IMG/VR virus record: IMGVR_UViG_3300046010_008569
Location: 1-64,000 of that record
DNA from: a virus
Length of the DNA stretch: 64,000 nucleotides
Direction: 5' to 3' (one strand)
Below, piece by piece: positions 30,575 through 44,784 of the stretch (the first letter of the stretch is position 1; each line of letters begins with the position of its first letter). The notes below the pieces were generated by a model. It saw nothing but the letters and a program-made list of their open reading frames with translations, was not told the origin of the DNA and did not search any database. The position numbers and the translations under genes were made by a program.

Positions 30575-30590
30575 GATATCCCCTGTCGAT

Positions 30591-30631: not shown

Positions 30632-30662
30632 CACTCTTCCCCCGTTTGCCCCCAGGGACTTA

Positions 30663-32321: not shown

Positions 32322-32393
32322 GGAAACGACCCTTCCTTAGGACCCTGAAAGTTGAGATAGCTTCGGGTTATGTACCCTACCCGGCGTGGTAAT

Positions 32394-32806: not shown

Positions 32807-33015
32807 CGGCCCATTAACTCCTGAGTTATCCGCGCTGCCTCAGCCTTGAGCTCCGCCATCTGCTGGCGAAGCTTGAACTCTTTCTGAACCGCGGTGTCAA
32901 TCGTGCGTGATGCGGCCTTCCACGGGCCACCCCGCTCCGGCTCCCCGGCCGCAATGGACGCCTGCTCAAAGGCGTCCTTGAGGACGCACAGGATGTTTAG
33001 AGTTTCAGTGTTCAT
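32803..33015 (-). CDS. Small helical protein, 70 aa
   Basis: A short helical, charged protein (MNTETLNILCVLKDAFEQAS; FKLRQQMAELKAEAARITQE) of unknown function. It is the first gene of the small unit that ends at 32394. An AAGGG motif lies 9-13 nt before the ATG (TAGAAGGGTTTATTAATG), similar to the AAGGGTCT of the early operon but without its hairpins. Confidence 0.6.
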   Translation of the reverse strand: MNTETLNILCVLKDAFEQASIAAGEPERGGPWKAASRTIDTAVQKEFKLRQQMAELKAEAARITQELMGR

Positions 33016-33735: not shown

Positions 33736-34137
33736 TCATAACTCCTTCTTCTTGTCCTTATGCCAGGGCAGCTTAATCAACAAGCCCCCATCGATCTCAA
33801 ACTCTGCCGCGGAGCGGCGTAATTTTGTTTTACCATCATGCGGTATCAAGACCGATTCGGCAAGTAAATCATTTTTAACAGGCGACGCCTTGCGGAGCTT
33901 AAGGACGCCATCCTCCGCTGGAACCAGCTTGATCCATCCAGCATGATCGCCAGAGCCGATCTCCAGCGCCAGAAGAAAGCCATCACCTCCTCCAAACAGC
34001 GCCTGAGAAGCTTCGGCAGTGAGCATGACATACGGCGTCAATCTTCCCTTAGAGCCTCTCCTGCGGGCTCCTATGCTGATTGCGGGGGTATTCTGAACGA
34101 CCCCTTTAGTGGGTCGTTCGACGGGAGCGAATGTCAC
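33736..34137 (-). CDS. Unknown protein, 133 aa
   Basis: A 133-residue basic protein with a strand-rich centre (DGFLLALEIGSGDHAGWIKL) and Lys-rich end (KLPWHKDKKKEL). No family recognised. Its start overlaps the upstream stop (4 nt), making it the last gene of the three-gene unit 34582-33736 that reads away from the control region. Confidence 0.65.
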   Translation of the reverse strand: MTFAPVERPTKGVVQNTPAISIGARRRGSKGRLTPYVMLTAEASQALFGGGDGFLLALEIGSGDHAGWIKLVPAEDGVLKLRKASPVKNDLLAESVLIPHDGKTKLRRSAAEFEIDGGLLIKLPWHKDKKKEL

Positions 34138-34349
34138 TCAGAACCACCTTCTCGCTCATCCTCGGAGAGGGAGTAGTCCCAGCGACGGAAGGCGCTCGGG
34201 ACCTCGCTCCCAGCATCTTTCCATTCCTTAACGATGTCAGCCATGATGTCATCATTGGCTGGACCGCAGCATTCGTAGAGGCTGTCCACAGTGTAAAGGA
34301 GAAACTCTCGTTCGTTCTTTGCCGCGGCGGTTTCCGATTCAATACTCAT
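34134..34349 (-). CDS. Small acidic protein, 71 aa
   Basis: The 71-residue product is acidic and helical (YTVDSLYECCGPANDDIMAD; EWKDAGSEVPSAFRRWDY) with no recognised motif. ATGA overlaps join it to both neighbours. Its compact size and charge resemble early phage proteins that bind host factors, but that is only an analogy. Confidence 0.65.
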   Translation of the reverse strand: MSIESETAAAKNEREFLLYTVDSLYECCGPANDDIMADIVKEWKDAGSEVPSAFRRWDYSLSEDEREGGSE

Positions 34350-34582
34350 CCTAGATCATCCTGCTGTGCTTCCGGTCGGTTGACCAGGTCTGGCCACTTG
34401 CCATCGTTGTACTCGCTGTACGCTCGTCGCCAGCCCTCGTAGAACTCCGGGCTGTCGTGCTCCCTGGGGAACCTACCTTCGACAAAGGCATTCCAGCCGG
34501 CAGCGAACTCAGTGTCGCCACCCTCATCGGAAAGCTTAAACACCGCCACTCGGTCGTTTAGTCTGGCTACGGCATTGGTCAT
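34346..34582 (-). CDS. Small acidic protein, 78 aa
   Basis: The ATG at 34582 is preferred over upstream in-frame starts because the 20 bases before it (beginning CGTATGTGAGC) are 19/20 identical to the bases before the ATG at 50848. The product (MTNAVARLNDRVAVFKLSDE; GWNAFVEGRFPREHDSPEFY) contains a helix of the type 'GWxxFxEGxxxxxDS.EFYEGWR', which I recall from small phage or ribosome-modulation-like proteins, and ends acidic. First gene of the leftward early unit. Confidence 0.55.
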   Translation of the reverse strand: MTNAVARLNDRVAVFKLSDEGGDTEFAAGWNAFVEGRFPREHDSPEFYEGWRRAYSEYNDGKWPDLVNRPEAQQDDLG

Positions 34583-34710
34583 GTTCGCTACGCTCACATA
34601 CGCAGCCATGGCTGCTTCTTGCATCAACAGATATGTGACTTGGATTTGCATTGCAACTAACGTGATGGAGTTTTGTATAAAATTTTTGTAATGGGTATAT
34701 GGGACCCAGT

Positions 34711-34752
34711 GATGTGATTTGGAAAATGTAATTTGGGAAATGTGATTTGTGT
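34711..34752 (+). repeat. Three tandem 14-bp iterons
   Basis: Three direct repeats without spacer: GATGTGATTTGGAA, AATGTAATTTGGGA and AATGTGATTTGTGT. Consensus AATGTRATTTGGGA. They follow an AT-rich tract and precede further T/G-rich near-repeats (GGAGTTTGGATTGGAA). Tandem short repeats of this kind bind an initiator or regulator. Confidence 0.6.
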
Positions 34753-34889
34753 GGAGTTTGGATTGGAAATTTTTCTGGACTTGGGTCTGGATTGTTAATT
34801 GAATAGCGGGAGTGGGGCGCGCGTGCATAAGCGGGGGTGCGGGTGGGTGGGGTTTCGCGCGGAGGATAGCTCGGGCGTACGCGCGTGCT

Positions 34890-34908
34890 GTTGCCCCGAA
34901 GGGGCAAC
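34890..34908. other. Perfect 8-bp hairpin, GAA loop
   Basis: GTTGCCCC-GAA-GGGGCAAC, ending two bases before the P1 operator. It lies upstream of the P1 start, so it is not in the P1 transcript; it could act in a leftward transcript's leader or as a protein-binding palindrome. Confidence 0.5.
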
Positions 34909-34909
34909 A

Positions 34910-34953
34910 TTACCGATTTGTAACTTGAGTTCCGGTTGGGTTCATGGGATGAT
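34910..34953 (+). promoter_or_regulatory. Promoter P1 with operator-like palindrome
   Basis: TTAC-CGATTT-GTAA (34910-34923) stands one base before a -35-like TTGAGT (34925-34930); 17 bp further is GATGAT (34948-34953), a weak -10. The operator and -35 are arranged exactly as in P2 at 36289. P1 would drive the gene at 35010. Confidence 0.55.
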
Positions 34954-34969
34954 GTAAGGGTCGAAAGCA

Positions 34970-35009
34970 GGCCCAGCGATGGGCTGGGTCATTCGATAGG
35001 GTCTTTGAC
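34970..35009 (+). promoter_or_regulatory. Early leader element, short form (copy 0)
   Basis: Hairpin CCCAGC-GATGG-GCTGGG (34972-34988) is followed by ATAGGGTCTTTGAC and the ATG at 35010. It corresponds to the second hairpin plus the AGGGTCT box of the 16 full elements downstream; the first hairpin is absent. Confidence 0.6.
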
Positions 35010-35420
35010 ATGACGGATACGAACAAGCCGAAGCTCACGGAAGCCGAGCGCTTGGCCAAGATGAAGGCAGGCAGAAATGCGGCCGGCGCCAAGGTGCGAG
35101 CAGCGCGGAGTGATGTCCTCACTAACACTGATGACTTCATTAACTCCGCTGAGTTTCGAGCACGTCACAAGACTAACTCAGTGATTAAACGGGTCTTTGA
35201 TGACCAGTTTGCACTGCGGGAGAAATACAAGATCAACCCTGACGGCTCAGCGATGAGCATTGAGGATGAGATCGCAGCCCGCAATGCGGCAGGTAAGCCG
35301 CTCTCTGACCGCCAGCGTAAGCATCTCGGGATGCTCACGAAGAAGGAAGAGAAAGAGCTTGCCGCCCTCGCTGAGGCAGACGACGACCAGGACGACGACT
35401 CGCAAGAGGAAGCGGCCTAG
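35010..35420 (+). CDS. Charged early protein, 136 aa
   Basis: The 136-residue protein has a basic N-terminus (NKPKLTEAERLAKMKAGRNA), a helical middle (SVIKRVFDDQFALREKYKIN) and a Glu/Asp-rich tail (ADDDQDDDSQEEAA). No family recognised. It is transcribed alone, from P1 to a strong terminator 12 nt past its stop, and has the early AGGGTCT box as ribosome site. A DNA- or RNA-binding regulator would fit but is unproven. Confidence 0.75.
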   Translation: MTDTNKPKLTEAERLAKMKAGRNAAGAKVRAARSDVLTNTDDFINSAEFRARHKTNSVIKRVFDDQFALREKYKINPDGSAMSIEDEIAARNAAGKPLSDRQRKHLGMLTKKEEKELAALAEADDDQDDDSQEEAA

Positions 35421-35431
35421 CCTGCAAGGAG

Positions 35432-35466
35432 AAGCCCAGAGCCGAAAGGTTCTGGGCTTTTTCTTT
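35432..35466 (+). terminator. Rho-independent terminator
   Basis: AAGCCCAGAGCC-GAAA-GGTTCTGGGCTT forms a 12-bp stem (one G-T pair) with a GNRA loop, followed by TTTCTTT. It closes the P1 transcript. Confidence 0.9.
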
Positions 35467-35506
35467 GTCCTGGCGCCAGCGAACACCAAGCCGAAGGCGG
35501 GTGTGA

Positions 35507-35542
35507 GGGGCTGAAAGCCCCGAACCCTTTTACCAAAAGGGT
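35507..35542 (-). terminator. Double hairpin after TerS-like gene
   Basis: Read on the minus strand, ACCCTTTT-GGT-AAAAGGGT is followed by GGGGCTTTCAGCCCC. The first begins 2 nt beyond the stop of the 215-aa gene. Neither has a long U-run, but the A/T-rich first stem could provide one (TTTT on either side). Probable terminator or 3' stabiliser. Confidence 0.55.
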
Positions 35543-35543
35543 G

Positions 35544-36191
35544 TTAAAGGCTGTTCTTTCCGCCGCTTAGCTGGCTCACTCGCTCTTTAATCTGCTCCAT
35601 GACCTCTTCTGAGGTGGCTGCGGCTCGCTCTGCGGCCTTGCCTTCAGCGACAGCCACGGCCCTATGTTCGCTCAGCGCTTTGAGCGCGGCGATCCTAGCG
35701 GCGGCTGAATTGTTGGGGTCGGCGGCTTCTGCTTCTAATCGTTTAACGATAAAGTTGTCCAGCCGGGAGGCGGTGTGTGACACATCACCCTCCTCCTGAT
35801 CAAGCCTCGTGATAATGCTGCTACGTACATCTGGCTTCTTCGCCAGGGCGTTAGCCCTGGAATACATACGCTCATAAGACATCACCTCAACGACCTGTTC
35901 CCGGTCATCAATGATCTGGACCGCATAGCAGAGCTCAGGGAAGCTCTGCTTGTATGCCTCCACTAGGCTGGCCCCTGATGCGACTAGCTCAGCGAAGCTA
36001 TTCTCCTGTTCTGTCAGCCTATCACTGGCGCCTTCAGCGATGGCCTCTTTGGCCATTCGCTTGAACATGGCGATCTTATTCTGGTTGGTTGGAGTGGTGG
36101 AGCCTTTCTTCTTTCCTCCCTTACCCTGAGACTCAAGCTCTCTCTTACGAGAGAGCAGGTCTATGATCTTGTCTTTGTCTGGGGTGTCCAT
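35544..36191 (-). CDS. Terminase small subunit-like protein, 215 aa
   Basis: The middle of the protein follows the Terminase_2/TerS pattern: LTEQENSFAELVASGASLVE-AYKQSF (helix-turn-helix entry), then SRANALAKKPDVRSSIITRL, the usual 'a.kLlkkpdV...i' segment, and ARIAALKALSEHRAVAVAEG near the end. A basic linker (GKGGKKKGSTTP) lies at residues 23-34. TerS recognises packaging sites and regulates TerL. It lies 5.7 kb upstream of terL on the same strand rather than beside it, and its promoter would have to lie in the gap 36192-36300. Family call is by pattern only. Confidence 0.6.
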   Translation of the reverse strand: MDTPDKDKIIDLLSRKRELESQGKGGKKKGSTTPTNQNKIAMFKRMAKEAIAEGASDRLTEQENSFAELVASGASLVEAYKQSFPELCYAVQIIDDREQVVEVMSYERMYSRANALAKKPDVRSSIITRLDQEEGDVSHTASRLDNFIVKRLEAEAADPNNSAAARIAALKALSEHRAVAVAEGKAAERAAATSEEVMEQIKERVSQLSGGKNSL

Positions 36192-36288
36192 GTGTATTGT
36201 CTTTTGTGGCGCCGGGGAGGTCTCCCGGCTTGGGAAGGGTTCGGGCGGTTAGGTTGATGACATTGCTATTTGTCACTGGAAAACATCA

Positions 36289-36333
36289 TTACGAATTTGT
36301 AATTTGACTTTTGCATCATACCCATGCTATAAT
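36289..36333 (+). promoter_or_regulatory. Strong sigma70-type promoter P2 with operator
   Basis: -35 TTGACT (36304-36309), 18-bp spacer, perfect -10 TATAAT (36328-36333). The palindrome TTAC-GAATTT-GTAA (36289-36302) ends one base before the -35, as in P1, so the same protein may bind both. P2 drives the 8.4-kb early operon. Confidence 0.85.
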
Positions 36334-36339
36334 GCCTGC

Positions 36340-36613
36340 ATAGTCTAAATGCGTCTGGACAGCCCGCTCTATTCTGGGCCACCACTAGAGGCATATAGTC
36401 TATCTGGGCATGGGGTTAAACCCAGCCCATGGTCAATGAGAAACCAGCGCTAGCTGGTGTATCAAAGACCGAAGGTCTTTGACATCGTGATCCCCTAGCT
36501 GCCCGGCCTTGACCCCGCGAGTTGACGCGTTGGCTATAGGGCAGCATTGCTGCGACGGGAGGGAGCTTAGGTCATCAAGCCTAACCCCTCCCGGCGCCTT
36601 TCTGTGTGCCATG
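36340..36613 (+). ncRNA. Long structured 5' leader of the early operon
   Basis: No gene is visible between P2 and the first element. Hairpins follow one another: GCCC-GCTCTATTCT-GGGC; ACCAGC-GCTA-GCTGGT; the perfect CAAAGACC-GAA-GGTCTTTG; CTGCCC/GGGCAG enclosing CGCG-AGTTGA-CGCG; and CGGGAGGG-AGC-TTAGG / CCTAA-C-CCCTCCCG just before the first copy of the repeated element. The direct repeat ATAGTCTA occurs near the 5' end and 40 nt later. Such folding may protect mRNA or sense a ligand or protein; none is identified. Confidence 0.5.
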
Positions 36614-36664
36614 CTAAGCCCTCGCTGAGGGTTTAGCGGGGCATACAGCCCCAAAGGGTCTAAC
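36614..36664 (+). promoter_or_regulatory. Early leader element copy 1
   Basis: Hairpin A CTAAGCCCTC-GCT-GAGGGTTTAG (36614-36636), hairpin B GGGGC-ATACA-GCCCC (36638-36652), then AAAGGGTCTAAC and ATG. Confidence 0.75.
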
Positions 36665-36892
36665 ATGACATACGAATACCCAAAGCCACAACACGTCCGT
36701 ATGGGTTGCAAGGTTCACTGGAACTACTATCAAACCAGTGAAGACGCCCAAAAGGCTGCCGAGATGGCAGCTATAGAGGCGGCTGATCTGGAGAAGCAAG
36801 GATTCGATTGGGGCTATCAAAGCCCTGGCCATATCCGCCTGCCGACAGAGCAAGACTTCCACCCAGGCTTTTATGAGGTCTGTATCCCCTAA
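36665..36892 (+). CDS. Small early protein, 75 aa
   Basis: First gene of the P2 operon. The 75-residue protein (MTYEYPKPQHVRMGCKVHWN; EMAAIEAADLEKQGFDWGYQ) has a helix flanked by aromatic strands and resembles no family I can name. Its ATG sits 3 nt after the AAAGGGTCT box. As an immediate-early product it may act on host functions. Confidence 0.75.
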   Translation: MTYEYPKPQHVRMGCKVHWNYYQTSEDAQKAAEMAAIEAADLEKQGFDWGYQSPGHIRLPTEQDFHPGFYEVCIP

Positions 36893-36895
36893 GCA

Positions 36896-36967
36896 TTGCC
36901 TTGAGGGGCCGGAGCGATCCGGCCCTGATAGCCAGCGCTTAGAAGCTGGATAAAGAAAGGGTCTAAC
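36896..36967 (+). promoter_or_regulatory. Early leader element copy 2
   Basis: Hairpin A GGGCCGG-AGCGAT-CCGGCCC (36906-36925), hairpin B CCAGC-GCTTAGAA-GCTGG (36932-36949), then AAAGGGTCTAAC, ATG. The loop GCTTAG is complementary to CTAAGC at the upstream stop codon. Confidence 0.8.
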
Positions 36968-37354
36968 ATGCAAAACCTTGAACAACTGATTGCAGCCGGC
37001 ATCACCCTCCCTGTCCGCCTTTCCAAGGCGGAACATGGGCCTTTGATTAAGAAGGCCTTTGAAGAGGGTAGCCTGATGCGGCAGGTTCAAATGCGAGACA
37101 AGCCGAACCAAGTTCACGGTCCTGGATTGTATCGCGGCCCTGATGGTCCCTGTGCTATTGGGGCTGTCATTCCTGAGGCTCTCGGCCGATGGATTGATGC
37201 AGGGAATGCTGACAGAAACTACTCCGTTGGGAATCTTGAGGGTGTGATTGATTGCGGTGCAGACCGTGATTGGTTCAACCAAGTTCAGTCAGCCCATGAC
37301 GGAGGGACTGAAATCTCTATGAGAAGGCTTGAGAATCTTCTCTCTGAGGTATAA
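36968..37354 (+). CDS. Early protein, YRGP-GPC family member 1, 128 aa
   Basis: The protein shares with the next gene the motif Y-R-G-P-x-G-P-C-x-I-G (here LYRGPDGPCAIGAVI) and a later WFNQVQSAHDG (next gene: WFVALQEAHDG), so the two are diverged paralogues. The paired Cys, Trp and His-Asp residues look functional, perhaps a small enzyme or binding fold, but no family is recognised. Confidence 0.75.
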   Translation: MQNLEQLIAAGITLPVRLSKAEHGPLIKKAFEEGSLMRQVQMRDKPNQVHGPGLYRGPDGPCAIGAVIPEALGRWIDAGNADRNYSVGNLEGVIDCGADRDWFNQVQSAHDGGTEISMRRLENLLSEV

Positions 37355-37368
37355 GCGATAGTCTCATT

Positions 37369-37464
37369 TATGGCCTTGGTGCGTAGCGCCAGGGCCATAG
37401 GTCGGGCGATTGTGAATGCAATTACTCGCTGCATTTTTCAGATGCAGAACTAAAGGGTCTAACT
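37369..37464 (+). promoter_or_regulatory. Early leader element copy 3 (extended)
   Basis: Hairpin A TATGGCCTTGG-TGCGTAGCG-CCAGGGCCATA (37369-37399), a middle stem CGGGCGATTG-TGAATG-CAATTACTCG, then CTGCAT-TTTTCAG-ATGCAG (37429-37447), AAAGGGTCTAACT, ATG. One stem more than usual. Confidence 0.7.
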
Positions 37465-37869
37465 ATGATTAAGCATTGGACTAAAGCTGAAGCTCTCCCG
37501 ATCCTCCAAGAGGCGTTTCGGAACAATTCTTTAGCTGCCCAGCAAGGGGCTCATACTTGCCAGTACCGAGGCCCCTACGGGCCGTGCATCATCGGTGTCC
37601 TGATTGATGACGAAACAGCCGCTAAATGGGACGTTTGGACTGAGTTTGGTGACAGCTTCTCTATTGCCCCAGTGTTCAACGACAAGAGGCATCACGCCTC
37701 CGCTAAGATGATTGAGGAGGTCGAGGCCGCTTTTGGTGGTCCTGACGCTCAATGGTTTGTGGCGCTACAAGAAGCTCATGACGGCTGGGCTACCAGTAAC
37801 GAATACCATCGGGAATGGGATGGCGGAACATACCGTCAGACCATCACCAAGCTACTAGAACTAAGCTGA
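37465..37869 (+). CDS. Early protein, YRGP-GPC family member 2, 134 aa
   Basis: Diverged paralogue of the preceding protein: QYRGPYGPCIIGVLI and WFVALQEAHDGWATS align with its motifs. It is acidic overall. Tandem duplication within the early operon, each copy with its own leader element, is the simplest history. Function unknown. Confidence 0.75.
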   Translation: MIKHWTKAEALPILQEAFRNNSLAAQQGAHTCQYRGPYGPCIIGVLIDDETAAKWDVWTEFGDSFSIAPVFNDKRHHASAKMIEEVEAAFGGPDAQWFVALQEAHDGWATSNEYHREWDGGTYRQTITKLLELS

Positions 37870-37877
37870 GCTCAGCT

Positions 37878-37943
37878 AGAGCATCCGGCCTTCGGGTCGG
37901 GTGCTTCATGGTGCGCTTAGTACCGATAAGAAAGGGTCTGACT
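37878..37943 (+). promoter_or_regulatory. Early leader element copy 4
   Basis: Hairpin A AGCATCCGGCC-TTCG-GGTCGGGTGCT (37880-37905, two G-T pairs), hairpin B GGTGC-GCTTA-GTACC (37910-37924), AAAGGGTCTGACT, ATG. Loop GCTTA is complementary to TAAGC just before the upstream stop. Confidence 0.8.
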
Positions 37944-38156
37944 ATGAAAATATTCCACCACCTACGTTTCGGCTTAAAAGGCTGTCTCGCTAGTGGCGAG
38001 GCGTTCACTGTGAAGGCAACTTCGACAACCGGCGAGGTTGTTGAGGGCGGTCTAGCGACCGTGGACGATTACGGCATCGTGGTAGGCAGTATCGGCCAGC
38101 AAGCACAAATGCAATGGCACGATATGATACGGCTCGAAATCGAAGAGCAATTCTGA
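37944..38156 (+). CDS. Small early protein, 70 aa
   Basis: The ATG at 37944 follows the AAAGGGTCT box; an earlier in-frame ATG at 37815 would lie inside the previous gene. The 70-residue product is beta-rich (FTVKATSTTGEVVEGGLATV, YGIVVGSIGQQAQMQWHDM) and could be an SH3- or OB-like barrel. No family recognised. Confidence 0.75.
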   Translation: MKIFHHLRFGLKGCLASGEAFTVKATSTTGEVVEGGLATVDDYGIVVGSIGQQAQMQWHDMIRLEIEEQF

Positions 38157-38164
38157 GTCCAGCT

Positions 38165-38229
38165 AGAGCGTCCAGGCCTGTCCTGGGCGCTTCATGGTGC
38201 ATTCAGCGCCTGAAAGAGAAGGGTCTACT
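38165..38229 (+). promoter_or_regulatory. Early leader element copy 5
   Basis: Hairpin A AGCGTCCAGG-CCTGT-CCTGGGCGCT (38167-38191), hairpin B GGTGC-ATTCA-GCGCC (38196-38210), AGAAGGGTCTACT, ATG. Loop ATTCA pairs (one G-U) with TGAGT at the upstream stop. Confidence 0.8.
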
Positions 38230-38349
38230 ATGAAAATCAAAATCCATAAGGGATGGACTGTCGATCTCGACTACTTGCTGGCAACCAGCGATGGTTGCTA
38301 TCGATGCTACGACATCGGCCCATTCCAATTCATGTTTGAGGTTCTGTGA
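38230..38349 (+). CDS. Tiny early protein, 39 aa
   Basis: A 39-codon frame (MKIKIHKGWTVDLDYLLATS, then Cys-rich GCYRCYDIG) follows a full leader element, which is the main reason to accept it. The CYRC motif suggests metal binding or a disulfide. Its TGA overlaps the next ATG. Confidence 0.65.
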   Translation: MKIKIHKGWTVDLDYLLATSDGCYRCYDIGPFQFMFEVL

Positions 38350-38468
38350 TGGAATACTTCACCAACCTCAATGTCACTGACAGGTTCCTGCTTGTCATTG
38401 GTGTCTGCTTTCTTGTTCTGGCTGTGTATATGGTCTTGGACTTGATAGGAGATACACTGAGAGAGTGA
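38349..38468 (+). CDS. Tiny membrane protein, 39 aa
   Basis: A 39-residue protein with one clear transmembrane helix (FLLVIGVCFLVLAVYMVLDL), coupled to the previous gene by an ATGA overlap. Inner-membrane location is expected. Function unknown; small early membrane proteins of phages can block superinfection or depolarise the membrane. Confidence 0.6.
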   Translation: MEYFTNLNVTDRFLLVIGVCFLVLAVYMVLDLIGDTLRE

Positions 38469-38469
38469 G

Positions 38470-38541
38470 AGTCTCAGGGTCAGCACATCCGGTGGGTGTG
38501 CTGATTCTCGGGCGCTCAGCCCGATTTGGAAAGGGTCTAAA
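38470..38541 (+). promoter_or_regulatory. Early leader element copy 6
   Basis: Hairpin A TCAGCACA/TGTGCTGA (38480-38504), hairpin B TCGGGC-GCTCA-GCCCGA (38508-38524), AAAGGGTCTAAA, ATG. Third sub-type, with GTCTCAG upstream and TCTCGGGC in stem B, shared with copies 7 and 8. Confidence 0.8.
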
Positions 38542-38964
38542 ATGAAACATGACGCAATGGCAGAAGTGCCTCATGCGGTCGTTAACGCTCAGGGTTGGCT
38601 CACGTCAATCTTGGAGATGGTCGAGGCGCTGGAACGCTCGGAAGAGCAGGCAGTGCATGGGCCAGACGAAACGGATGCAGTGCGGTCCAGGATTGAAGAA
38701 TCAGTCCTGTCTGTGCTTGTCCGCGATGGCTGGCGGCTACCAGGAGTAATAATCACTCCTGGCGCTGAAGAGTACGAAATCCTCCTGACTACCGGAGGGC
38801 CAGCGCTTCGCATCACTGGCAAGCTCAACGAGCACAACGAGCCCGATGACTTCCCGCGGCTTGAGTATCAGGACTGGTACCAACCATGGACTGAGTACAC
38901 TGACGCGAGAGAGCATCGGGAGGCTTTGCAGCGCTTTGCTTCCTGCTTCTACTATGGAGATTGA
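38542..38964 (+). CDS. Early acidic protein, 140 aa
   Basis: An acidic 140-residue protein. The N-terminal half is helical (EVPHAVVNAQGWLTSILEMV), and the middle has VRDGWRLPGVIITPGAEEYE-ILLTTGGPALRITG, a beta hairpin region, with an aromatic end (YQDWYQPWTEYTDAREHREA). I have seen related sequences in phage early regions but know no function. Confidence 0.75.
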   Translation: MKHDAMAEVPHAVVNAQGWLTSILEMVEALERSEEQAVHGPDETDAVRSRIEESVLSVLVRDGWRLPGVIITPGAEEYEILLTTGGPALRITGKLNEHNEPDDFPRLEYQDWYQPWTEYTDAREHREALQRFASCFYYGD

Positions 38965-38965
38965 T

Positions 38966-39055
38966 ATGATAAAAAAACCAACGCTTCTGGAGATAAGCTT
39001 ACTTGCAGCAACGATCATAGTGTTTCTTATCACTGTGGTTGCTCTGTTTGGTTGA
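38966..39055 (+). CDS. Tiny membrane protein, 29 aa
   Basis: ATG 38966 follows the upstream stop by one base, with GGAG six bases before it. The 29-residue product is one transmembrane helix (LLEISLLAATIIVFLITVVA). Another single-helix protein, like that at 38349-38468. Confidence 0.5.
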   Translation: MIKKPTLLEISLLAATIIVFLITVVALFG

Positions 39056-39060
39056 TAGTC

Positions 39061-39157
39061 TCAGTGAGGCGCCATCCAGGTTGTCGCTGCGCTCCATGCG
39101 CTGCGCTTCTCGGGTGGCGCTGATCTCGGGCGATCATGCTCGGCAAAGGGTCTAACA
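39061..39157 (+). promoter_or_regulatory. Early leader element copy 7
   Basis: A long first stem GCGCCATCC/GGGTGGCGC (39069-39120, with a GC-rich inner hairpin), hairpin B CGGGC-GATCAT-GCTCG (39127-39142), CAAAGGGTCTAACA, ATG. Confidence 0.75.
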
Positions 39158-39337
39158 ATGAAACGGTACTTGTTATTCACCTACCAGATTTATTACCCGT
39201 CAGGTGGGTGGAACGATTTCAAAGGCAGCTTCGATGATATCGAAGAAGCTAGAGGAGTCTGGACTAACGATCCATACAGAGATGATCGCTGTCAAGTGAT
39301 TGACCGCGATACTGGACAGATAGTCTGGAAGGACTGA
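39158..39337 (+). CDS. Small early protein, 59 aa
   Basis: A 59-codon frame accepted because a leader element precedes it. The product (MKRYLLFTYQIYYPSGGWND; FDDIEEARGVW; CQVIDRDTGQIVWKD) has the strand-helix-strand pattern of small beta-alpha proteins that phages encode in early regions ('Y..y.p.gG..D..g.f...eeA'). Function unknown. Confidence 0.7.
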   Translation: MKRYLLFTYQIYYPSGGWNDFKGSFDDIEEARGVWTNDPYRDDRCQVIDRDTGQIVWKD

Positions 39338-39339
39338 GC

Positions 39340-39411
39340 GTCTCAGTTGCTAGCGTCCGGTCTGGCGCTAGCTTCTCGGGCGATCACCGCTCGATTACGA
39401 AGGGTCTGACT
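39340..39411 (+). promoter_or_regulatory. Early leader element copy 8
   Basis: Hairpin A GCTAGCG/CGCTAGC (39349-39372), hairpin B CGGGC-GATCACC-GCTCG (39377-39393), GAAGGGTCTGACT, ATG. Confidence 0.8.
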
Positions 39412-39642
39412 ATGAGCATGAACGAAAAGAGAGCCATGTGGGCTCATGACGCCGTGGAGCGCTTCCGTGAAGTGTGCCCTGGTAGCAAGAACAAAGATGG
39501 CTCAATCGAAATGAGCGAGGCCATCGGAGACTTGCTGGTTAATCTATTTCACCTCTGCGATCTAGAGGATATTGACGCAGCCGGAGCCGCTAAGCGCGCG
39601 CTTGCAATGTATCGAGATGAGGTGGAAAACCCCGACTTCTGA
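39412..39642 (+). CDS. Small early protein, 76 aa
   Basis: A 76-residue helical protein (NEKRAMWAHDAVERFREVCP; IGDLLVNLFHLCDLEDIDAA; AKRALAMYRDEVENPDF). The pattern 'DLLvdL.H..d...idfd.al..A...Y..E' is one I recall from small phage or plasmid proteins, without known role. The following stop overlaps sequence complementary to the next loop B. Confidence 0.75.
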   Translation: MSMNEKRAMWAHDAVERFREVCPGSKNKDGSIEMSEAIGDLLVNLFHLCDLEDIDAAGAAKRALAMYRDEVENPDF

Positions 39643-39647
39643 GAACT

Positions 39648-39723
39648 GCCCTGAGAGCCCGGCCTAACAGCCGGGCTTGATGGCCAGCGCTTAGCTGGAT
39701 GATATTAAAGAAAGGGTCTAAGA
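39648..39723 (+). promoter_or_regulatory. Early leader element copy 9
   Basis: Hairpin A AGCCCGGC-CTAACA-GCCGGGCT (39656-39677), hairpin B CCAGC-GCTTA-GCTGG (39684-39698), GAAAGGGTCTAAGA, ATG. Represents the commonest sub-type (TTGAT-GG-CCAGC). Confidence 0.85.
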
Positions 39724-39921
39724 ATGAAAACCAAGTATCTTGCGGAGCGAAAGCTCGCAATAGCGGAAGATGCGTTGTTCCAATTACTCCTAGCATACGC
39801 AAAGGGTGAGCGGAATGGCGGCTCAATTGATTGGGAAGATGTGGATATCGCGTTTGAAACCGCGAAAGAAGCCATGCCCGATGCATACGCTGACATCGTA
39901 AAAGAACTGGAGACAGAATGA
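39724..39921 (+). CDS. Small early protein, paralogue of 40464 product, 65 aa
   Basis: The segment ALFQLLLAYAKGERNGGSID-WEDVDIAFETAKEAMPDAYA aligns with ALIQLLLTYAKAEETRDVEW-SDVDLAVEYAKEALPGEY in the gene at 40464, so the two are paralogues; this copy lacks the other's C-terminal extension. Acidic and helical. Function unknown. Confidence 0.75.
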   Translation: MKTKYLAERKLAIAEDALFQLLLAYAKGERNGGSIDWEDVDIAFETAKEAMPDAYADIVKELETE

Positions 39922-40172
39922 GTAGTTTTTCACCGCATATCTGGGACCACTGCCTGGCGCAAATGCCGGCCACGTTCCGCGCTCGGGAGCTTCTACAGAG
40001 CTACCGTGATCTTGAAGATTTGTACTGGCATCGCGCTGGCGCTTGGGTGGCTTCGCTCTTCTCAAAGAAGGCTAAGCTACACTGGCGCCAGACATGCTTG
40101 CGGATCATCGAGAAACGAACCGAGATTCGTCAACTGGGAGGCATCGTGCCTCCGTTTTGGAGTATCGCATAA
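39918..40172 (+). CDS. Small early basic protein, 84 aa
   Basis: An 84-residue basic, helical protein (ARELLQSYRDLEDLYWHRAG; WRQTCLRIIEKRTEIRQLGG), coupled to its upstream gene by an ATGA overlap and to the next by TAATG. No family recognised. Its basic charge contrasts with the acidic neighbours, so a complex between them is conceivable. Confidence 0.7.
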   Translation: MSSFSPHIWDHCLAQMPATFRARELLQSYRDLEDLYWHRAGAWVASLFSKKAKLHWRQTCLRIIEKRTEIRQLGGIVPPFWSIA

Positions 40173-40384
40173 TGGCAACATTTCAAGATCGATTTCACAA
40201 GATCATCAAACAAGCTAAGCGAGAAGCGGAGCGTGACGGCTCCGCTGTGGCGATCCTAAACCTCAACCAGATCGGATCGCCAATGCTCGTCATTCGTCCG
40301 CGCGAATGGAGTGACAGTCATGATTGTGTGGCGCAAGTCCATGCTGACGGGACAGTCACCGAAACAGGAAGGATGAGAAACTAA
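40172..40384 (+). CDS. Small early protein, 70 aa
   Basis: The ATG at 40172 shares its A with the upstream TAA; an earlier in-frame ATG at 40094 lies inside the previous gene. The 70-residue product has a basic helix (FHKIIKQAKREAERDGSAVA) then strands (NLNQIGSPMLVIRPREW). Unknown function. Confidence 0.7.
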   Translation: MATFQDRFHKIIKQAKREAERDGSAVAILNLNQIGSPMLVIRPREWSDSHDCVAQVHADGTVTETGRMRN

Positions 40385-40391
40385 CATAGCA

Positions 40392-40463
40392 TTGCACTGA
40401 GAGCATCGGCCTATGGCCGGTGCTCGATGTCCAGCGCTATGCTGGGAACTGAAAGGGTCTACC
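40392..40463 (+). promoter_or_regulatory. Early leader element copy 10
   Basis: Hairpin A GAGCATCGGCC-TAT-GGCCGGTGCTC (40401-40425), hairpin B CCAGC-GCTAT-GCTGG (40431-40445), GAAAGGGTCTACC, then GTG as start. Loop GCTAT is complementary to ATAGC after the upstream stop. Confidence 0.85.
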
Positions 40464-40814
40464 GTGAATACAGAACTTGCAAAACAAGCGCTCATTCAAC
40501 TCTTACTGACTTATGCCAAGGCAGAAGAGACGCGAGACGTTGAATGGTCTGACGTGGACTTGGCGGTCGAATACGCCAAGGAAGCGTTGCCGGGTGAATA
40601 CGAGCGCATCCTGGATGAACTCCAGTTTGACGACACTCAGGAACGTATCCGCGCGCAATTCAAGACAGATATCGAGCCGCTGGTTATTGAGCAGTACGGG
40701 GCTGACGACGAAGTCGCCCTGAACGAAGAGTTCAACAACTGGACAGACTCGCTCTGCAAAGACGGCATAATCTCCGATTATGTCTACAACAACATCACTC
40801 GAACTGACGACTGA
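40464..40814 (+). CDS. Acidic early protein, 116 aa, GTG start
   Basis: The GTG at 40464 stands exactly where the other elements place ATG, so it is taken as start rather than an in-frame ATG at 40413. Residues 1-55 are paralogous to the product of 39724. The C-terminal extension (VIEQYGADDEVALNEEFNNW) is strongly acidic, which gives a DNA-mimic-like charge. Function unknown. Confidence 0.75.
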   Translation: MNTELAKQALIQLLLTYAKAEETRDVEWSDVDLAVEYAKEALPGEYERILDELQFDDTQERIRAQFKTDIEPLVIEQYGADDEVALNEEFNNWTDSLCKDGIISDYVYNNITRTDD

Positions 40815-40816
40815 GA

Positions 40817-40890
40817 ACTGCCATGAGAGCCCAGGCGCAAGCTTGGGCTCGATTGCCAGTGCTTAGCGCTGGAATACGAAAGGGTCTACT
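40817..40890 (+). promoter_or_regulatory. Early leader element copy 11
   Basis: Hairpin A GAGCCCAGGC-GCAA-GCTTGGGCTC (40827-40850), hairpin B CCAGTGC-TTA-GCGCTGG (40856-40872), GAAAGGGTCTACT, ATG. Confidence 0.85.
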
Positions 40891-41502
40891 ATGCATGAAG
40901 TTTACAAAGTCGAGTACCGCGGATGCGTGATCAAAGCTTACTATGATCAAGACGCATCACACACTAACCCAATCGATAAGATGAAGTACGACGACACCTT
41001 CATCTGGGCCGTGTGGGAACGTAACTCGATCTTCAGCGACCGGGATTATCGACCGGTTGATGATCCGTCAGAGATGCCGGACTGGGCAGAAGAGAACGGG
41101 TACGAGTTATTCCCGCTCTTCAAGTACGAGCACAGTGGCGTTGCTTACAGCATCGCCCCTTTCTCGTGCCGATGGGACTCAGGTCAAGTCGGTTATCTGG
41201 CCATCAAAAAATCGGCATTCACTTCACCAGAGGCGAAGCCATTGCAAGAATATGCCGAACAGTTCGTTAAGACTGCCGGTGCTTGGTGTAATGGTGAAGT
41301 CTACGGATACACTGCATACACCGAAGACGGAGAAGATATCGACTCTTGCTGGGGCTTCATCGGAGACGATGGCTACTCATGGCGCAATGAAGACTGCTAC
41401 ATGATCCAGCAAGCCAAGGAGAATATCGACTACTACCTGAAAGAACAGGCAGAGATTCCGTACAAGTACCAAGAAGACGCTGACGCGGCCATGAACGGCT
41501 AG
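40891..41502 (+). CDS. Conserved-type early phage protein, 203 aa
   Basis: A 203-residue acidic protein. The start (MHEVYKVEYRGCVIKAYYDQ), the middle (CRWDSGQVGYLAIKK) and CNGEVYGYTAYTEDGEDIDS-CWGF are patterns I recall from uncharacterised proteins of many phages and plasmids ('D.g.vGyi', 'nGevyGy.....dgeeidScwGf'). No enzymatic motif is clear. It is the largest product of the early operon. Confidence 0.8.
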   Translation: MHEVYKVEYRGCVIKAYYDQDASHTNPIDKMKYDDTFIWAVWERNSIFSDRDYRPVDDPSEMPDWAEENGYELFPLFKYEHSGVAYSIAPFSCRWDSGQVGYLAIKKSAFTSPEAKPLQEYAEQFVKTAGAWCNGEVYGYTAYTEDGEDIDSCWGFIGDDGYSWRNEDCYMIQQAKENIDYYLKEQAEIPYKYQEDADAAMNG

Positions 41503-41511
41503 AATGCAACT

Positions 41512-41579
41512 AGAGCCCATCGGCACAAGCCGGTGGGCTTCATGATGCAGTCAAAGCATCACACTGAAAGGGTCTAACT
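41512..41579 (+). promoter_or_regulatory. Early leader element copy 12
   Basis: Hairpin A AGCCCATCGGC-ACAA-GCCGGTGGGCT (41514-41539), hairpin B TGATGC-AGTCAAA-GCATCA (41543-41561), GAAAGGGTCTAACT, ATG. Confidence 0.85.
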
Positions 41580-41741
41580 ATGAAAGCCTTCAAAACAAAA
41601 CACTTCGCTGCTTCATGGCAGCGCGGTGTTCTTTTGTTTGCGCTTGGCCAGCTGTCTCCGGATGATCTACCCGCTGAAAAGCGGGAGCTTATCCGAGGAA
41701 TAGCTAACTGGGCGTTAAGTCATGGAAGGAATATCAAATGA
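41580..41741 (+). CDS. Small early protein, 53 aa
   Basis: A 53-codon frame directly after a leader element: MKAFKTKHFAASWQRGVLLF followed by a polar helix (DDLPAEKRELIRGIANWALS). One amphipathic or hydrophobic stretch near residue 15-25. Its stop overlaps the next ATG. Confidence 0.65.
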   Translation: MKAFKTKHFAASWQRGVLLFALGQLSPDDLPAEKRELIRGIANWALSHGRNIK

Positions 41742-41899
41742 AAGAATACGTCATCACGCTTCGGCGTGACCGGGGCGGTAAGATCAGCGTCCTGACAACA
41801 GCATCTTCTTTGGCGCAAGCCATTAAGCAGGTGTGCGATTTCGAGTTTGCACCTGAGAGTGCAGTTATTGAAACCAAGTTGATCAGGGAGCTTTTCTAA
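41738..41899 (+). CDS. Small early protein, 53 aa
   Basis: A 53-codon frame with ATGA overlap to its upstream gene and TAATG to the next. Pattern strand-strand-helix-strand (MKEYVITLRRDRGGKISVLT; SLAQAIKQVCDFE), typical of small beta-alpha proteins. Unknown function. Confidence 0.65.
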   Translation: MKEYVITLRRDRGGKISVLTTASSLAQAIKQVCDFEFAPESAVIETKLIRELF

Positions 41900-42459
41900 T
41901 GGCTAAGCTAAACATTTGGGAAACGCCAGATTCTTACGCTGGCTTCAACCCTGTCGGACACATCCTAGTTGCGGCTAAACACCGTGACTCGGATTGTTTG
42001 ACACGCTCCAACTGGATCATTTCCTGCCAGCGAATCGCTAAAGTTGCTGGCGTCGAGGCGCTTCCAGACCTGGCCGACCTCTATGAAGGCGGCTGGCCAT
42101 CAGGGAGGCGTCTTAATCCGGAGGAAATGCCGGCCGCATACACGTTCTCAGCATCACACTGCTTAGTGGGCTGGGTAGAATACATGCTTGTTCGCAATGA
42201 CGCTCCAGAGGTTGTTATCGCTGAAGCGCAAGCTATTGCGGATGAAATTAGCAACTACCCGGCCCTCAACGAGGACCACTGGAGCGAAATGGAGTGGGAA
42301 GAGGCCCAAGAATACTGGGCCGGAATGTCTCTCCGAGATAGACTCGATATCATTACTGATAGTCGTGGTGAGCGCGCTTGCTCAATCTTCGCTATCAGGC
42401 GGGATTACATTCCGCAAGATGATAACGGCTTCATCTTTGAAAGACTGACACGACCATAA
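41899..42459 (+). CDS. Conserved-type acidic early protein, 186 aa
   Basis: The protein starts MAKLNIWETPDSYAGFNPVG and has a segment ISNYPALNEDHWSEMEWEEA-QEYW followed by MSLRDRLDII. The pattern 'dYPvLdEedyse.E.E...ywa..sl..R' is widespread in uncharacterised phage proteins. Strongly acidic with many Trp. It is third in a coupled trio behind element 12. Confidence 0.8.
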   Translation: MAKLNIWETPDSYAGFNPVGHILVAAKHRDSDCLTRSNWIISCQRIAKVAGVEALPDLADLYEGGWPSGRRLNPEEMPAAYTFSASHCLVGWVEYMLVRNDAPEVVIAEAQAIADEISNYPALNEDHWSEMEWEEAQEYWAGMSLRDRLDIITDSRGERACSIFAIRRDYIPQDDNGFIFERLTRP

Positions 42460-42465
42460 TGAGTG

Positions 42466-42537
42466 TTGCCTTGATAGGGCGGGAGAAATCCCGCCCTTGA
42501 TAGCCAGCAATCAAGCTGGATCACTAGGGTCTAAACT
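42466..42537 (+). promoter_or_regulatory. Early leader element copy 13
   Basis: Hairpin A GGGCGGGA-GAAA-TCCCGCCC (42477-42496), hairpin B CCAGC-AATCAA-GCTGG (42504-42519), CTAGGGTCTAAACT, ATG. Here GCAA at loop B can pair with TTGC after the upstream stop. Confidence 0.85.
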
Positions 42538-42948
42538 ATGAAATACATTGCAATCTATCTGGACTGCTGCTTGTCCAGCTATTTCCAAGGTTTTAATGGG
42601 CCGGTACTTAATGTGCCGGTTGATAGTGAAACCACCTACGGCGAGCTTTGCGGCGCGCTGACGGCGGAATTGCAAGTCTACGACAGCACTTACTACGAAG
42701 CGACGCTGAACATCGACACGTTCGACTGGGAGGAGGCTGAGAAGGCTATCATCCAGTTGTTCTCCGGCGTTGGTGTTGACGAGAAGGTTGCTGAAGCTCG
42801 CTACGCAGAACGGTATCGGCCGGTTGAGGACTGGATTCAGGCTGTTGCCTCCAGAATGACAACCATGAGCTACGACGATTGGAAGGAAGCCTGCGCGGAA
42901 GATGCAGAGTCCTGCTACTTCTACATCGGCTTCCGTAAAGCTGAGTGA
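42538..42948 (+). CDS. Acidic early protein, 136 aa
   Basis: A 136-residue acidic protein, strand-rich at the start (MKYIAIYLDCCLSSYFQGFN) and helical later (DWEEAEKAIIQLFSGVGVDE; DDWKEACAEDAESCYFYIGF). No recognised family. Preceded by a full leader element and followed by the most complex one. Confidence 0.75.
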   Translation: MKYIAIYLDCCLSSYFQGFNGPVLNVPVDSETTYGELCGALTAELQVYDSTYYEATLNIDTFDWEEAEKAIIQLFSGVGVDEKVAEARYAERYRPVEDWIQAVASRMTTMSYDDWKEACAEDAESCYFYIGFRKAE

Positions 42949-42950
42949 CA

Positions 42951-43063
42951 ATTGCGGTGAGAGCTAGGGCTTCGGCCCTAGCTTGATCCCCAGCGGTCAC
43001 GCTGGAATAGAAGCCGCGAGAGCGGCGTATGTGAGCCGAAAGGCGAGCATGAAAGGGTCTACT
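42951..43063 (+). promoter_or_regulatory. Early leader element copy 14 (with two extra hairpins)
   Basis: Hairpin A AGCTAGGGC-TTCG-GCCCTAGCT (42962-42983), hairpin B CCAGC-GGTCAC-GCTGG (42990-43005), then GCCGC-GAGA-GCGGC (43013-43026) and GCC-GAAA-GGC (43035-43044) before GAAAGGGTCTACT. Loop GTCAC is complementary to GTGAC at the upstream stop. The insert includes CGTATGTGAGC, also found before 34582 and 50848. Confidence 0.8.
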
Positions 43064-43411
43064 ATGCACGAGAGTTTAGAAGAGGCGTCTAAAGCTGCCG
43101 CTGTATGTGAGGATATAGATGACGCCCTGCGCATCATCTATGATTACACAGGCATCGATGATGGCGCCTTTGGCTATGACTTTGTTGAGGGTCTTCGCGT
43201 TAGCGGTGATACGACATGGTCCGAGCTATCGCAAACAGAGCGCGATTTTGAAATCAACCATGCTGCTGCAATCGAAGTGGAAGCTATGGTAGCGTACAAG
43301 TTTCCTGTTATCGGTGACTTGAATGCTATTCGCATAGCTGCTCGCTCCGGCTACCAAGTTCCTGTTGCGTACCGATTAGCGACAGAGATGCAGCAAAGAA
43401 TGGGAAAATGA
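43064..43411 (+). CDS. Small early protein, 115 aa
   Basis: The ATG at 43064 follows the AAAGGGTCT box, and is preferred to an in-frame ATG at 42983. The 115-residue product is acidic and helical (SKAAAVCEDIDDALRIIYDY; IEVEAMVAYKFPVIGDLNAI). No family recognised. Confidence 0.7.
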   Translation: MHESLEEASKAAAVCEDIDDALRIIYDYTGIDDGAFGYDFVEGLRVSGDTTWSELSQTERDFEINHAAAIEVEAMVAYKFPVIGDLNAIRIAARSGYQVPVAYRLATEMQQRMGK

Positions 43412-43414
43412 GTG

Positions 43415-43488
43415 TTGCCCTGAGAGCCCGGTGAAAGCCGGGCTTGATGGCCAGCAATCAAACGCTGGAAATAGAGAAAGGGTCTATT
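43415..43488 (+). promoter_or_regulatory. Early leader element copy 15
   Basis: Hairpin A GCCCGGT-GAAA-GCCGGGC (43426-43443), hairpin B CCAGC-AATCAAAC-GCTGG (43451-43468), GAAAGGGTCTATT, ATG. Upstream GTGTTGCC is shared with copy 13. Confidence 0.85.
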
Positions 43489-43713
43489 ATGGACAATCAC
43501 ACAATTATTGGTGAGCAGACCGACATTCAAGAAGCGGTCGATCTCATCGCCGCACTGCACAAGCTTGTCGAGGTTGCAAAAGAGGCTACAGGTGAGGACT
43601 TTCCGGTACTCTACGTCGAAACGGAAGAAGGCATCGTCACGGGTGCGAAGCTTATCAAAAAAGAGCTTAGCGACGGCTCGTTCAGCTACGATATCGAACT
43701 CACCTACGACTAG
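43489..43713 (+). CDS. Small early protein, paralogue of 44500 product, 74 aa
   Basis: ATG 43489 follows the leader box. The segment HKLVEVAKEATGEDFPVLYV ... KLIKKELSDGSFSYDIEL aligns with LKLIETAKAASEDDPFPVIY ... KLVKRELSDGSHVFDIIL in the protein at 44500, so they are paralogues about half identical. Strand-helix architecture, acidic. Function unknown. Confidence 0.75.
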   Translation: MDNHTIIGEQTDIQEAVDLIAALHKLVEVAKEATGEDFPVLYVETEEGIVTGAKLIKKELSDGSFSYDIELTYD

Positions 43714-43825
43714 TAGTCATCCGCTTTGCCGTATATGCGGCTTTGCAAAAGGCGGCATCGGTTCGTGGAATGGGCAGCAATGCAAGTGCGGCCACTATGA
43801 GCCGCCAATCCAAATGATTGACTGA
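43712..43825 (+). other. Zinc-ribbon-like reading frame without own start
   Basis: Just past the stop of the 74-aa gene, the +1-shifted frame encodes LCRICGFAKGGIGSWNGQQC-KCGHYEPP and a stop at 43825. Cys spacing fits a zinc ribbon, yet no ATG/GTG/TTG starts this frame nearby. It may be reached by frameshift, be a decayed gene, or be chance. Confidence 0.25.
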
Positions 43826-43843
43826 ATTTCCACTGCCTTTGAG

Positions 43844-43916
43844 CGTTGCGGTGAGAGCTAGGCTTCGGCCTAGCTCAATCCCCAGCGGTCACGCTGGGCT
43901 ATGAAAGGGTCTCTAA
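43844..43916 (+). promoter_or_regulatory. Early leader element copy 16
   Basis: Hairpin A GAGCTAGGC-TTCG-GCCTAGCTC (43855-43876), hairpin B CCCAGC-GGTCAC-GCTGGG (43881-43898), GAAAGGGTCTCTAA, ATG. Near twin of copy 14 without its insert. Confidence 0.85.
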
Positions 43917-44171
43917 ATGATTAAACGACCAAGAATGTATGAGGGTTTGCCTATCGACGCGAGAGCGTCGATTGACGCGGCCTTTGAAGACCTTACCAAA
44001 GGTTTGCGAGGAATGAATTACGGCACAGACAACTGCGACCACGCTGAACACCTGATCGACGCTATGACGGAGTATTTCCTGTATTCCAACCCGGCGTTTC
44101 GATCTGTAGTCTACGCAGCCGCTTGCCACTACGAGGCAACCGGCGAATACGCGGAGGGCTGCGGAGGATGA
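43917..44171 (+). CDS. Small early protein, 84 aa
   Basis: An 84-residue helical protein (DARASIDAAFEDLTKGLRGM; HAEHLIDAMTEYFLYSNPAF) with a Cys at NCDHAE and CHYEA and a GCGG tail. No recognised family. First of a coupled trio; ATGA overlap with the next gene. Confidence 0.7.
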   Translation: MIKRPRMYEGLPIDARASIDAAFEDLTKGLRGMNYGTDNCDHAEHLIDAMTEYFLYSNPAFRSVVYAAACHYEATGEYAEGCGG

Positions 44172-44503
44172 GGATCGGCGTTGACACTGTACGCATCAAA
44201 GCGGTGCTGGCTCCGGAGGGGCCAGCGTCGCTATCCATAGGCCGCGGTCGCGTGGCAGAGCGAGGCCCTCAAGGCCTCACCCTCAAGCTGCATGACAAGC
44301 CGATCTTCAGGTACGATGGTAAAAGCATCGTGCTCGATCTGTGCGGCATGTGGACCCCCTCGACCACCAAAGCTATGCGCGAGTATGGTGATGCTGTCGG
44401 GGTGGCGATCAAACCATCGCTGGCCAAGGGGCGGTTTACCGCAAGCTACCGCGGCACTGTCCACGAGGCTAACTTCAACAACACAATAAGGATTGAAATA
44501 TGA
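44168..44503 (+). CDS. Basic early protein, 111 aa
   Basis: The start at 44168 overlaps the upstream stop and has GGAGG immediately before; an in-frame ATG at 44123 is inside the previous gene. The 111-residue product is basic and beta-rich (MRIGVDTVRIKAVLAPEGPA; FRYDGKSIVLDLCGMWTPST). Pattern suggests a small barrel. Unknown. Confidence 0.7.
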   Translation: MRIGVDTVRIKAVLAPEGPASLSIGRGRVAERGPQGLTLKLHDKPIFRYDGKSIVLDLCGMWTPSTTKAMREYGDAVGVAIKPSLAKGRFTASYRGTVHEANFNNTIRIEI

Positions 44504-44724
44504 CTCAAGTCATAGAAGAAATCGGAGACAATCACGAAGCCACTGACCTCTCCGCCACGCTGCTTAAGTTGATTGAAACAGCGAAGGCGGCGAGCGAGGA
44601 CGATCCATTCCCGGTCATTTACGTCGAGGATAGAGATGGAACGCGCTTCACAACGGCTAAACTCGTGAAGCGAGAACTTTCAGACGGCTCTCACGTATTC
44701 GATATCATACTGAGCGACGAATAG
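44500..44724 (+). CDS. Small early protein, paralogue of 43489 product, 74 aa
   Basis: Last gene of the early operon. Paralogue of the product at 43489 (see there): both have FPV(I/L)YVE and KRELSDGS or KKELSDGS. It lacks a leader element of its own and is coupled to its upstream gene by ATGA. Followed after 22 nt by the operon terminator. Confidence 0.75.
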   Translation: MTQVIEEIGDNHEATDLSATLLKLIETAKAASEDDPFPVIYVEDRDGTRFTTAKLVKRELSDGSHVFDIILSDE

Positions 44725-44746
44725 GGGATCACGCCACGCTAAGATT

Positions 44747-44784
44747 AAGGGCGGTCAGGAGAAATCCTGCCGCCCTTTTTCTTT
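44747..44784 (+). terminator. Rho-independent terminator of the early operon
   Basis: AAGGGCGGTCAGGA-GAAA-TCCTGCCGCCCTT: 14-bp stem with one mismatch and a GNRA loop, then TTTCTTT. It ends the plus-strand early operon; the minus-strand genes end just beyond it, at 44787, so it may also slow leftward transcripts. Confidence 0.9.

Follow-up and report, generated by a model that had tools for sequence, protein, structure and literature searches.

Paired hairpins and a near-invariant box precede sixteen start codons in a phage operon of small genes

Results

The virus record IMGVR_UViG_3300046010_008569 (70,142 bases, of which bases 1-64000 form the window analysed here) encodes a tailed-phage terminase and contains an operon of small genes, spanning ~36304-44780, in which sixteen start codons are each preceded by a leader built from two hairpins, A and B, and a near-invariant box. 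The leader is present in 15 intergenic gaps of the operon, 11 of which are 73-81 nt long, while all eight operon genes that overlap, adjoin or almost adjoin the preceding gene are without it, a distribution that supports the proposal, made in a preliminary description of the locus, of a modular element found once per translation start. For the leader before gene 36665 and a short form before gene 35010, the latter outside the operon, there is no nearby upstream gene on the + strand; the element therefore accompanies the start that follows it, not the stop that precedes it. Nearly all of the operon genes are orphans, and the label 'anti-host' earlier attached to them found no support; we infer that they are early genes from the type of gene and the one strong sigma70-like promoter.

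The box reads AAGGGTCT in 15 copies on the + strand (36654-43905), each followed by a start codon, and TAGGGTCT both in the sixteenth leader (42524) and in the short form (34998). Counting both strands, the window holds 17 matches to AAGGGTCT against 1.8 expected, a number reached by none of 100 shuffles, and there is no further array of boxes elsewhere in the record. The distance from AGGGTCT to the start codon is 3-5 nt across the 16 leaders, which, along with the box count and the folding of the copies, confirms sixteen leaders each just ahead of a start codon.

Three sub-types had been distinguished by hairpin B; these exist, and they differ in the 5' flank and in the spacer between A and B as well (flank and spacer signatures TTGCNNTGA...GATNNCCAGC, CTAGAGC...GCTTCATG and GTCTCA...TCGGGC). 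All leaders lie on the + strand. Type 1 comprises the leaders at 36893-36967 (before gene 36968), 39643-39723 (39724), 40385-40463 (40464, with a GTG start), 40815-40890 (40891), 42460-42537 (42538, with the box variant TAGGGTCT), 42949-43063 (43064, with two extra hairpins ahead of the box), 43412-43488 (43489) and 43836-43916 (43917), each identified by folding, the type-1 alignment and a covariance model, R1. Folding and R1 also identify the type 2 leaders at 37870-37943 (37944), 38157-38229 (38230) and 41503-41579 (41580), and the type 3 leaders at 38469-38541 (38542), 39056-39157 (39158) and 39338-39411 (39412), while the leader at 37355-37464 (37465) is type 3-like with an inserted hairpin, and that at 36591-36664 (36665) has a fourth form of its own. 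The short form (34935-35009) consists of one hairpin followed by TAGGGTCT. The constant spacing reported previously holds for the near-constant gap length but not for the interval between hairpin B and the box, which is mostly ~1-14 nt but reaches 48 nt before gene 43064, where it contains the extra hairpins.

Trained on the eight type-1 copies only, R1 recovered the remaining eight at ranks 9-18, six of them at E below 0.1 (38542 at 2.7e-9, four copies from 0.00015 to 0.011, and 37944 at 0.054). The weakest true copies, 37465 (E 0.17) and 36665 (E 0.19), which were otherwise found by folding, are interleaved with the short form (13.2 bits and a non-significant E of 0.13) and an unrelated - strand site (0.15), so that their placement depends chiefly on box and position.

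The mean folding z-score of 17 leaders is -3.4, compared with -1.1 for stretches of coding sequence in this operon (the short form scores -0.9). Comparative evidence for the structure comes entirely from copies within one genome, and near-duplicates among these (e.g. 43064 and 43917; 39724 and 43489) mean that the copies are not independent observations. In hairpin A, 126 of 128 cells are paired across the 16 copies, against a mean of 71.6 and a maximum of 100 with shuffled arms (0 of 20,000 shuffles reach the native count); the pairings were chosen by eye with the register fitted to the structure, and the shuffling control retains that register. A MAFFT alignment of the eight type-1 copies, made without the by-eye register, has 99.2% of cells paired and 7 of 15 pairs changing on both sides, with a covariation score of 0.574 against 0.021-0.136 in slid registers. 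The covariation that the preliminary description had proposed to look for is thus present in the alignment, and its view that the stems vary by paired changes, as expected of selected RNA structure, is borne out by both analyses.

The same type-1 copies contain a previously unreported 2-bp lower helix beneath a symmetric UGA/GAU internal loop, paired in 8/8 copies with five sequence combinations. Random shuffles match this pairing in 37 of 200,000 cases, and when the five distinct combinations are permuted only 1 of 120 arrangements pairs everywhere; as this is the smallest value the test allows, the independent evidence for the helix is modest. We dropped a kink-turn as an explanation of the UGA/GAU loop, which is symmetric and without a 3-nt bulge. 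Among type-1 copies hairpin B is near constant, with compensation seen only from one type to another, so that its covariation evidence comes from the between-type comparison only; the distinct hairpins B are paired at 39 of 39 positions, which 9 of 20,000 shuffles equal. G-U pairs are tolerated inside the stems, and nine of the 12 four-base loops are GNRA or UUCG, with a chance of ~1.6e-11 by a simple binomial that ignores both the loop preference of the folding program and the shared descent of the copies.

A simple scan found no promoter-like sites inside the leaders, the regional count being 6 against a shuffled expectation of 6.3, and no + strand terminator-like sites (GC-rich hairpin plus U run), and a role for the leaders as promoters or terminators was rejected on this basis. 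No known Rfam family, self-cleaving ribozymes included, matches the window at its gathering score, all permissive matches falling below threshold. The put sites of phage HK022 are likewise two adjacent hairpins in the nascent RNA, and the leaders could be imagined as antitermination signals of that kind, repeated to keep the polymerase reading. Put, however, acts processively from one or two copies close to the promoter, sixteen copies linked to start codons would not be expected, the box would be left unexplained and no Rfam family reaches threshold, which makes antitermination improbable. The tolerance of G-U pairs, the GNRA and UUCG loops and the lack of promoter- or terminator-like sites in the scan point to a function in RNA and not as a duplex DNA site.

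A near-invariant ribosome-binding site (RBS) box with an extended element upstream has been published as the start-associated sequence (SAS) and extended SAS (ESAS) (PMC3203893, PMC7302621), and the earlier remark that no description was known was too strong. Genomes of cluster K mycobacteriophages each contain 11-19 near-identical SAS boxes, which lie a few nt ahead of start codons and are conserved beyond Shine-Dalgarno (SD) pairing (PMC3203893; PMC11373665); they occur in non-structural genes with wide intergenic gaps, and in about half the extended element lies just upstream (PMC3203893). The leaders resemble SAS in having a near-invariant box (AAGGGTCT x15, TAGGGTCT x1) 3-5 nt before starts, with its TCT outside anti-SD pairing, and in being limited to small genes with wide gaps, 16 copies standing in one operon and none at the eight gapless genes. 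They differ in the box itself, which is AAAGGGTCT here, GGGATAGGAGCCC in cluster K and GGGAAAGGACCCC in Microbacterium cluster EF. Ten copies of the latter lie at RBSs, each with a weakly conserved upstream sequence, and the parts of that report covered here describe this as centred on a conserved GTAGAG and report no RNA structure (PMC7302621).

The upstream part separates the leaders more clearly from ESAS, which is a sequence-conserved inverted repeat whose changes, according to its authors, do not support RNA pairing, so that it is not a hairpin in mRNA (PMC3203893); later work proposes a SigA-like promoter within the ESAS of phage Adephagia (PMC11373665). In the leaders, by contrast, the upstream part is found in all 16 copies, varies in sequence, conserves compensated pairing and has no promoter-like site. 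The clearest copies in the Adephagia sequence are near-identical TTGACATGCATACAG repeats, and the mean folding z-score upstream of the box is -2.0 there and -3.5 here (p 0.02). The shared position (PMC3203893) and the promoters proposed for Adephagia (PMC11373665) could suggest that the leaders too act as DNA, in the manner of ESAS or of N4-type hairpin promoters, whether as promoters or as inverted repeats bound by a protein. We consider this very improbable: stem sequence changes in almost every copy, with G-U pairs tolerated, promoter-like sites are no commoner in the region than in shuffled sequence and fall outside the leaders, the Adephagia repeats are near-identical and carry TTGACA, unlike the leaders, and the proteins searched included no recognisable single-subunit RNA polymerase, one family search among these lacking a working positive control. 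At the start codon the leader therefore acts as an SAS module would, yet it is not a member of ESAS, sharing its layout but not its sequence or its features as a DNA site. Its RNA structure is what sets it apart from published SAS/ESAS, and no description of an RNA-structured SAS-like version was found in the open-access literature, most subscription papers lying outside the search.

Pattern scans of viral contigs and a scan of genome contigs gave either nothing or isolated single matches at about the number estimated by chance, though such scans require exact matches and may miss relatives; those single matches inspected in other contigs were not part of a leader array. Protein scans and a phage tblastn search found no phage sharing the operon. 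One contig (L125/L219) is 100% identical and covers only window positions 23992-36277, while another (L126, ~73% nucleotide identity) covers only regions other than the operon. A search for the large terminase (TerL) among 385 alphaproteobacterial genomes (the class of G008, a Sphingomonas) gave no match at E 1e-60. Homologues of one operon protein occur in phages of alphaproteobacteria, among others, and those of a second in phages infecting Brevundimonas, Erythrobacter and Prochlorococcus, also among others; the nearest named terminases belong to a gammaproteobacterial phage and to Pelagibacter phages. Five phages with early-gene homologues (L214, L215, L216, L217 and L218, from Erythrobacter, Sphingobium, Brevundimonas, Mesorhizobium and Ruegeria) have early regions with a repeated start module at many genes, in several cases a TTGAC-type promoter-like sequence with a near-invariant RBS; L214, for example, contains TTGACCGAATC 21 times and GGAGAC before ATG 21 times. 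These modules resemble SAS/ESAS, and the five phages were rejected as carriers of the leader, their repeats being promoter-like and not hairpins.

Turning to the remainder of the locus, a sigma70-like promoter, TTGACT-18-TATAAT with TG before the -10 (36304-36333, + strand, 11 of 12 consensus positions), reads into the operon. It is followed on the + strand by a highly structured operon leader (36336-36590, from folding and sequence reading); the stretch 36336-36664 has a folding z-score of -7.5, reached by 0 of 100 shuffles. Within it, a degenerate, element-like stretch at ~36443-36490 has ACCAGC..GCTGGT followed by AAGGTCTTTGACATC, with ATC at the position expected of a start codon, and shares GGTCTTTGACAT with the short form before gene 35010. 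At the operon end, sequence reading places an intrinsic-terminator-like hairpin and T run (44747-44782, + strand), which is absent from the terminator scan output. Between gene 43489-43713 and the leader of 43917, another frame (window 43715-43825) encodes HPLCRICGFAKGGIGSWNGQQCKCGHYEPPIQMID, with a zinc-ribbon-like tail, possibly a frameshift product or a gene that has lost its start. Elsewhere, a Phage_integrase family protein (window 59386-60210) may indicate a temperate phage or one that uses a recombinase, and a 1,972-residue protein on the - strand (record 63670-69588; L205 8671-14589) contains Zeta_toxin-type kinase and LPD23 (large polyvalent protein) domains.

Three paralogous gene pairs lie inside the operon (36968/37465, 39724/40464 and 43489/44500; 29-54% identity), which suggests that it grew by duplicating gene and leader. 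These pairs, together with the sharing of types by neighbouring leaders, might also be expected if the leaders were mainly boundaries of recombination or gene-shuffling cassettes with no regulatory role. Homology-driven exchange would, however, favour identical sequence, whereas here the stems differ and the pairing is kept, and we regard this as the least probable of the explanations considered.

Discussion

The leaders are structured at the RNA level, stand one per start and carry a near-invariant box. We favour, at a rough probability of 0.55, their being cis-acting RNA cassettes for translation start, in which an SD-type box lies behind insulating or stabilising hairpins. Each independently initiated cistron of an operon transcribed from one strong promoter would possess one such cassette, comprising a long stem-loop A, in most copies starting ~7-19 nt after the upstream stop codon and in type 1 seated on the 2-bp helix across the conserved symmetric UGA/GAU loop, then hairpin B, and then, in most copies, a single-stranded, purine-rich run that finishes with (A)AAGGGTCT, 3-5 nt ahead of the start codon. 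AAAGGG would be the SD sequence, and the local hairpins would keep it off neighbouring coding sequence, uncoupling each gene from its neighbours, and would probably stabilise the message as well. As shape would matter and stem sequence would not, copies could spread as their genes were duplicated and diverge afterwards.

That AAGGG is able to pair with the anti-SD, as had been proposed, holds true in all copies, with a mean for the box of -7.7 kcal/mol against a tail of the alphaproteobacterial type that includes a further CU. The cost of opening the box is 3.44 kcal/mol in native leaders and 4.34 kcal/mol in shuffled leaders, a difference of 0.9 (p 0.009), and such modelled accessibilities fit weakly with insulation of the box. 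The anti-SD recorded for Alphaproteobacteria in a survey is CCUCCUUU (PMC10783764). Riboswitch-like hiding of the SD by the hairpins was rejected, the box in most copies being no more buried than with shuffled leaders, as was an antisense RNA directed against the box, with a duplex energy (-11.4) no better than the shuffled mean (-11.6).

Several observations weigh against a translation-start cassette. When the leader is swapped for coding sequence the opening cost is 4.24 kcal/mol, not significantly different from the native 3.44 (p 0.09), and the accessibility effect is small and is absent in 36665, 39158 and 43064. With an E. coli-type anti-SD the box pairs more weakly than the average phage gene (-4.8 versus -6.3). 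A plain insulator explains neither the invariant TCT after AAGGG, which cannot pair with the anti-SD, nor the conserved 3x3 internal loop of type 1. Finally, no relative was found that covers the operon, and the case rests on one genome.

Hairpins of conserved shape and free sequence, lying between small genes under a single promoter, are also what RNA-processing sites would look like. RNase III-site hairpins lie between the early genes of phage T7, and by analogy RNase III acting in the stems, or RNase E in the single-stranded A-rich stretch ahead of the box, could cut the operon mRNA into separately stable units. Stems of ~19-22 pairs are possible in four of the 16 copies (36665, 37465, 38542 and 39158), but most stems A have just 8-13 pairs, which is short for RNase III, and copies also precede starts that have no upstream gene. 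No RNase III gene was found in the phage record, although the host might supply one, and a pure processing site would not need a near-invariant 9-nt box. We place processing second to the translation-start cassette, as an unlikely alternative. The 5' leader of E. coli ompA, in which two hairpins precede a single-stranded RBS and stabilise the mRNA, is a further parallel; neither this single leader nor the T7 sites, whose stems are longer, share a near-invariant box.

Third in order, and also unlikely, is a post-transcriptional regulon, in which a phage or host protein or RNA would recognise box and hairpins and switch the 16 genes as a set, much as RegB of T4 acts on SD sites of the GGAG type. 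Conservation of the box goes further than SD pairing requires (95% pairwise identity, compared with 41% for an arm of stem A), most other phage genes have ordinary, varied RBSs and do not use it, and type 1 has its conserved internal loop. RegB cuts GGAG in the initiation regions of early genes, so that a recurrent SD-type sequence open to common post-transcriptional control is shared by the two systems (PMC3014915); the T4 sites differ in being GGAG cleavage sites with no double-hairpin leader, and no RegB-like gene was recognised here. However, neither the hairpin loops nor most of the stem sequences are conserved, the internal loop of type 1 is missing from types 2 and 3, no protein searched was recognisable as an RNA-binding protein or nuclease-type regulator, and the operon transcript contains no box complements beyond chance.

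A broader proposal, which we make only tentatively, is that the leaders represent a modular, shape-selected class of phage RNA leader, a standard 75-nt double-hairpin translation-start cassette set before every independent gene of the operon. The regulon so formed might have a dedicated trans-acting factor as its reader, or be read by the ribosome via box and internal loop, with the stems free to diverge.

Phages carry many small genes of unknown function, and little is known of how each receives its own dose from a shared transcript. Start-associated repeats were recognised in some phages as early as 2011, their role being unexplained. In the sixteen natural variants of the leader the stem sequence is free, the shape conserved and the box almost fixed, which makes it directly testable whether structure or sequence sets expression and provides a ready natural set of candidate RBS insulators.

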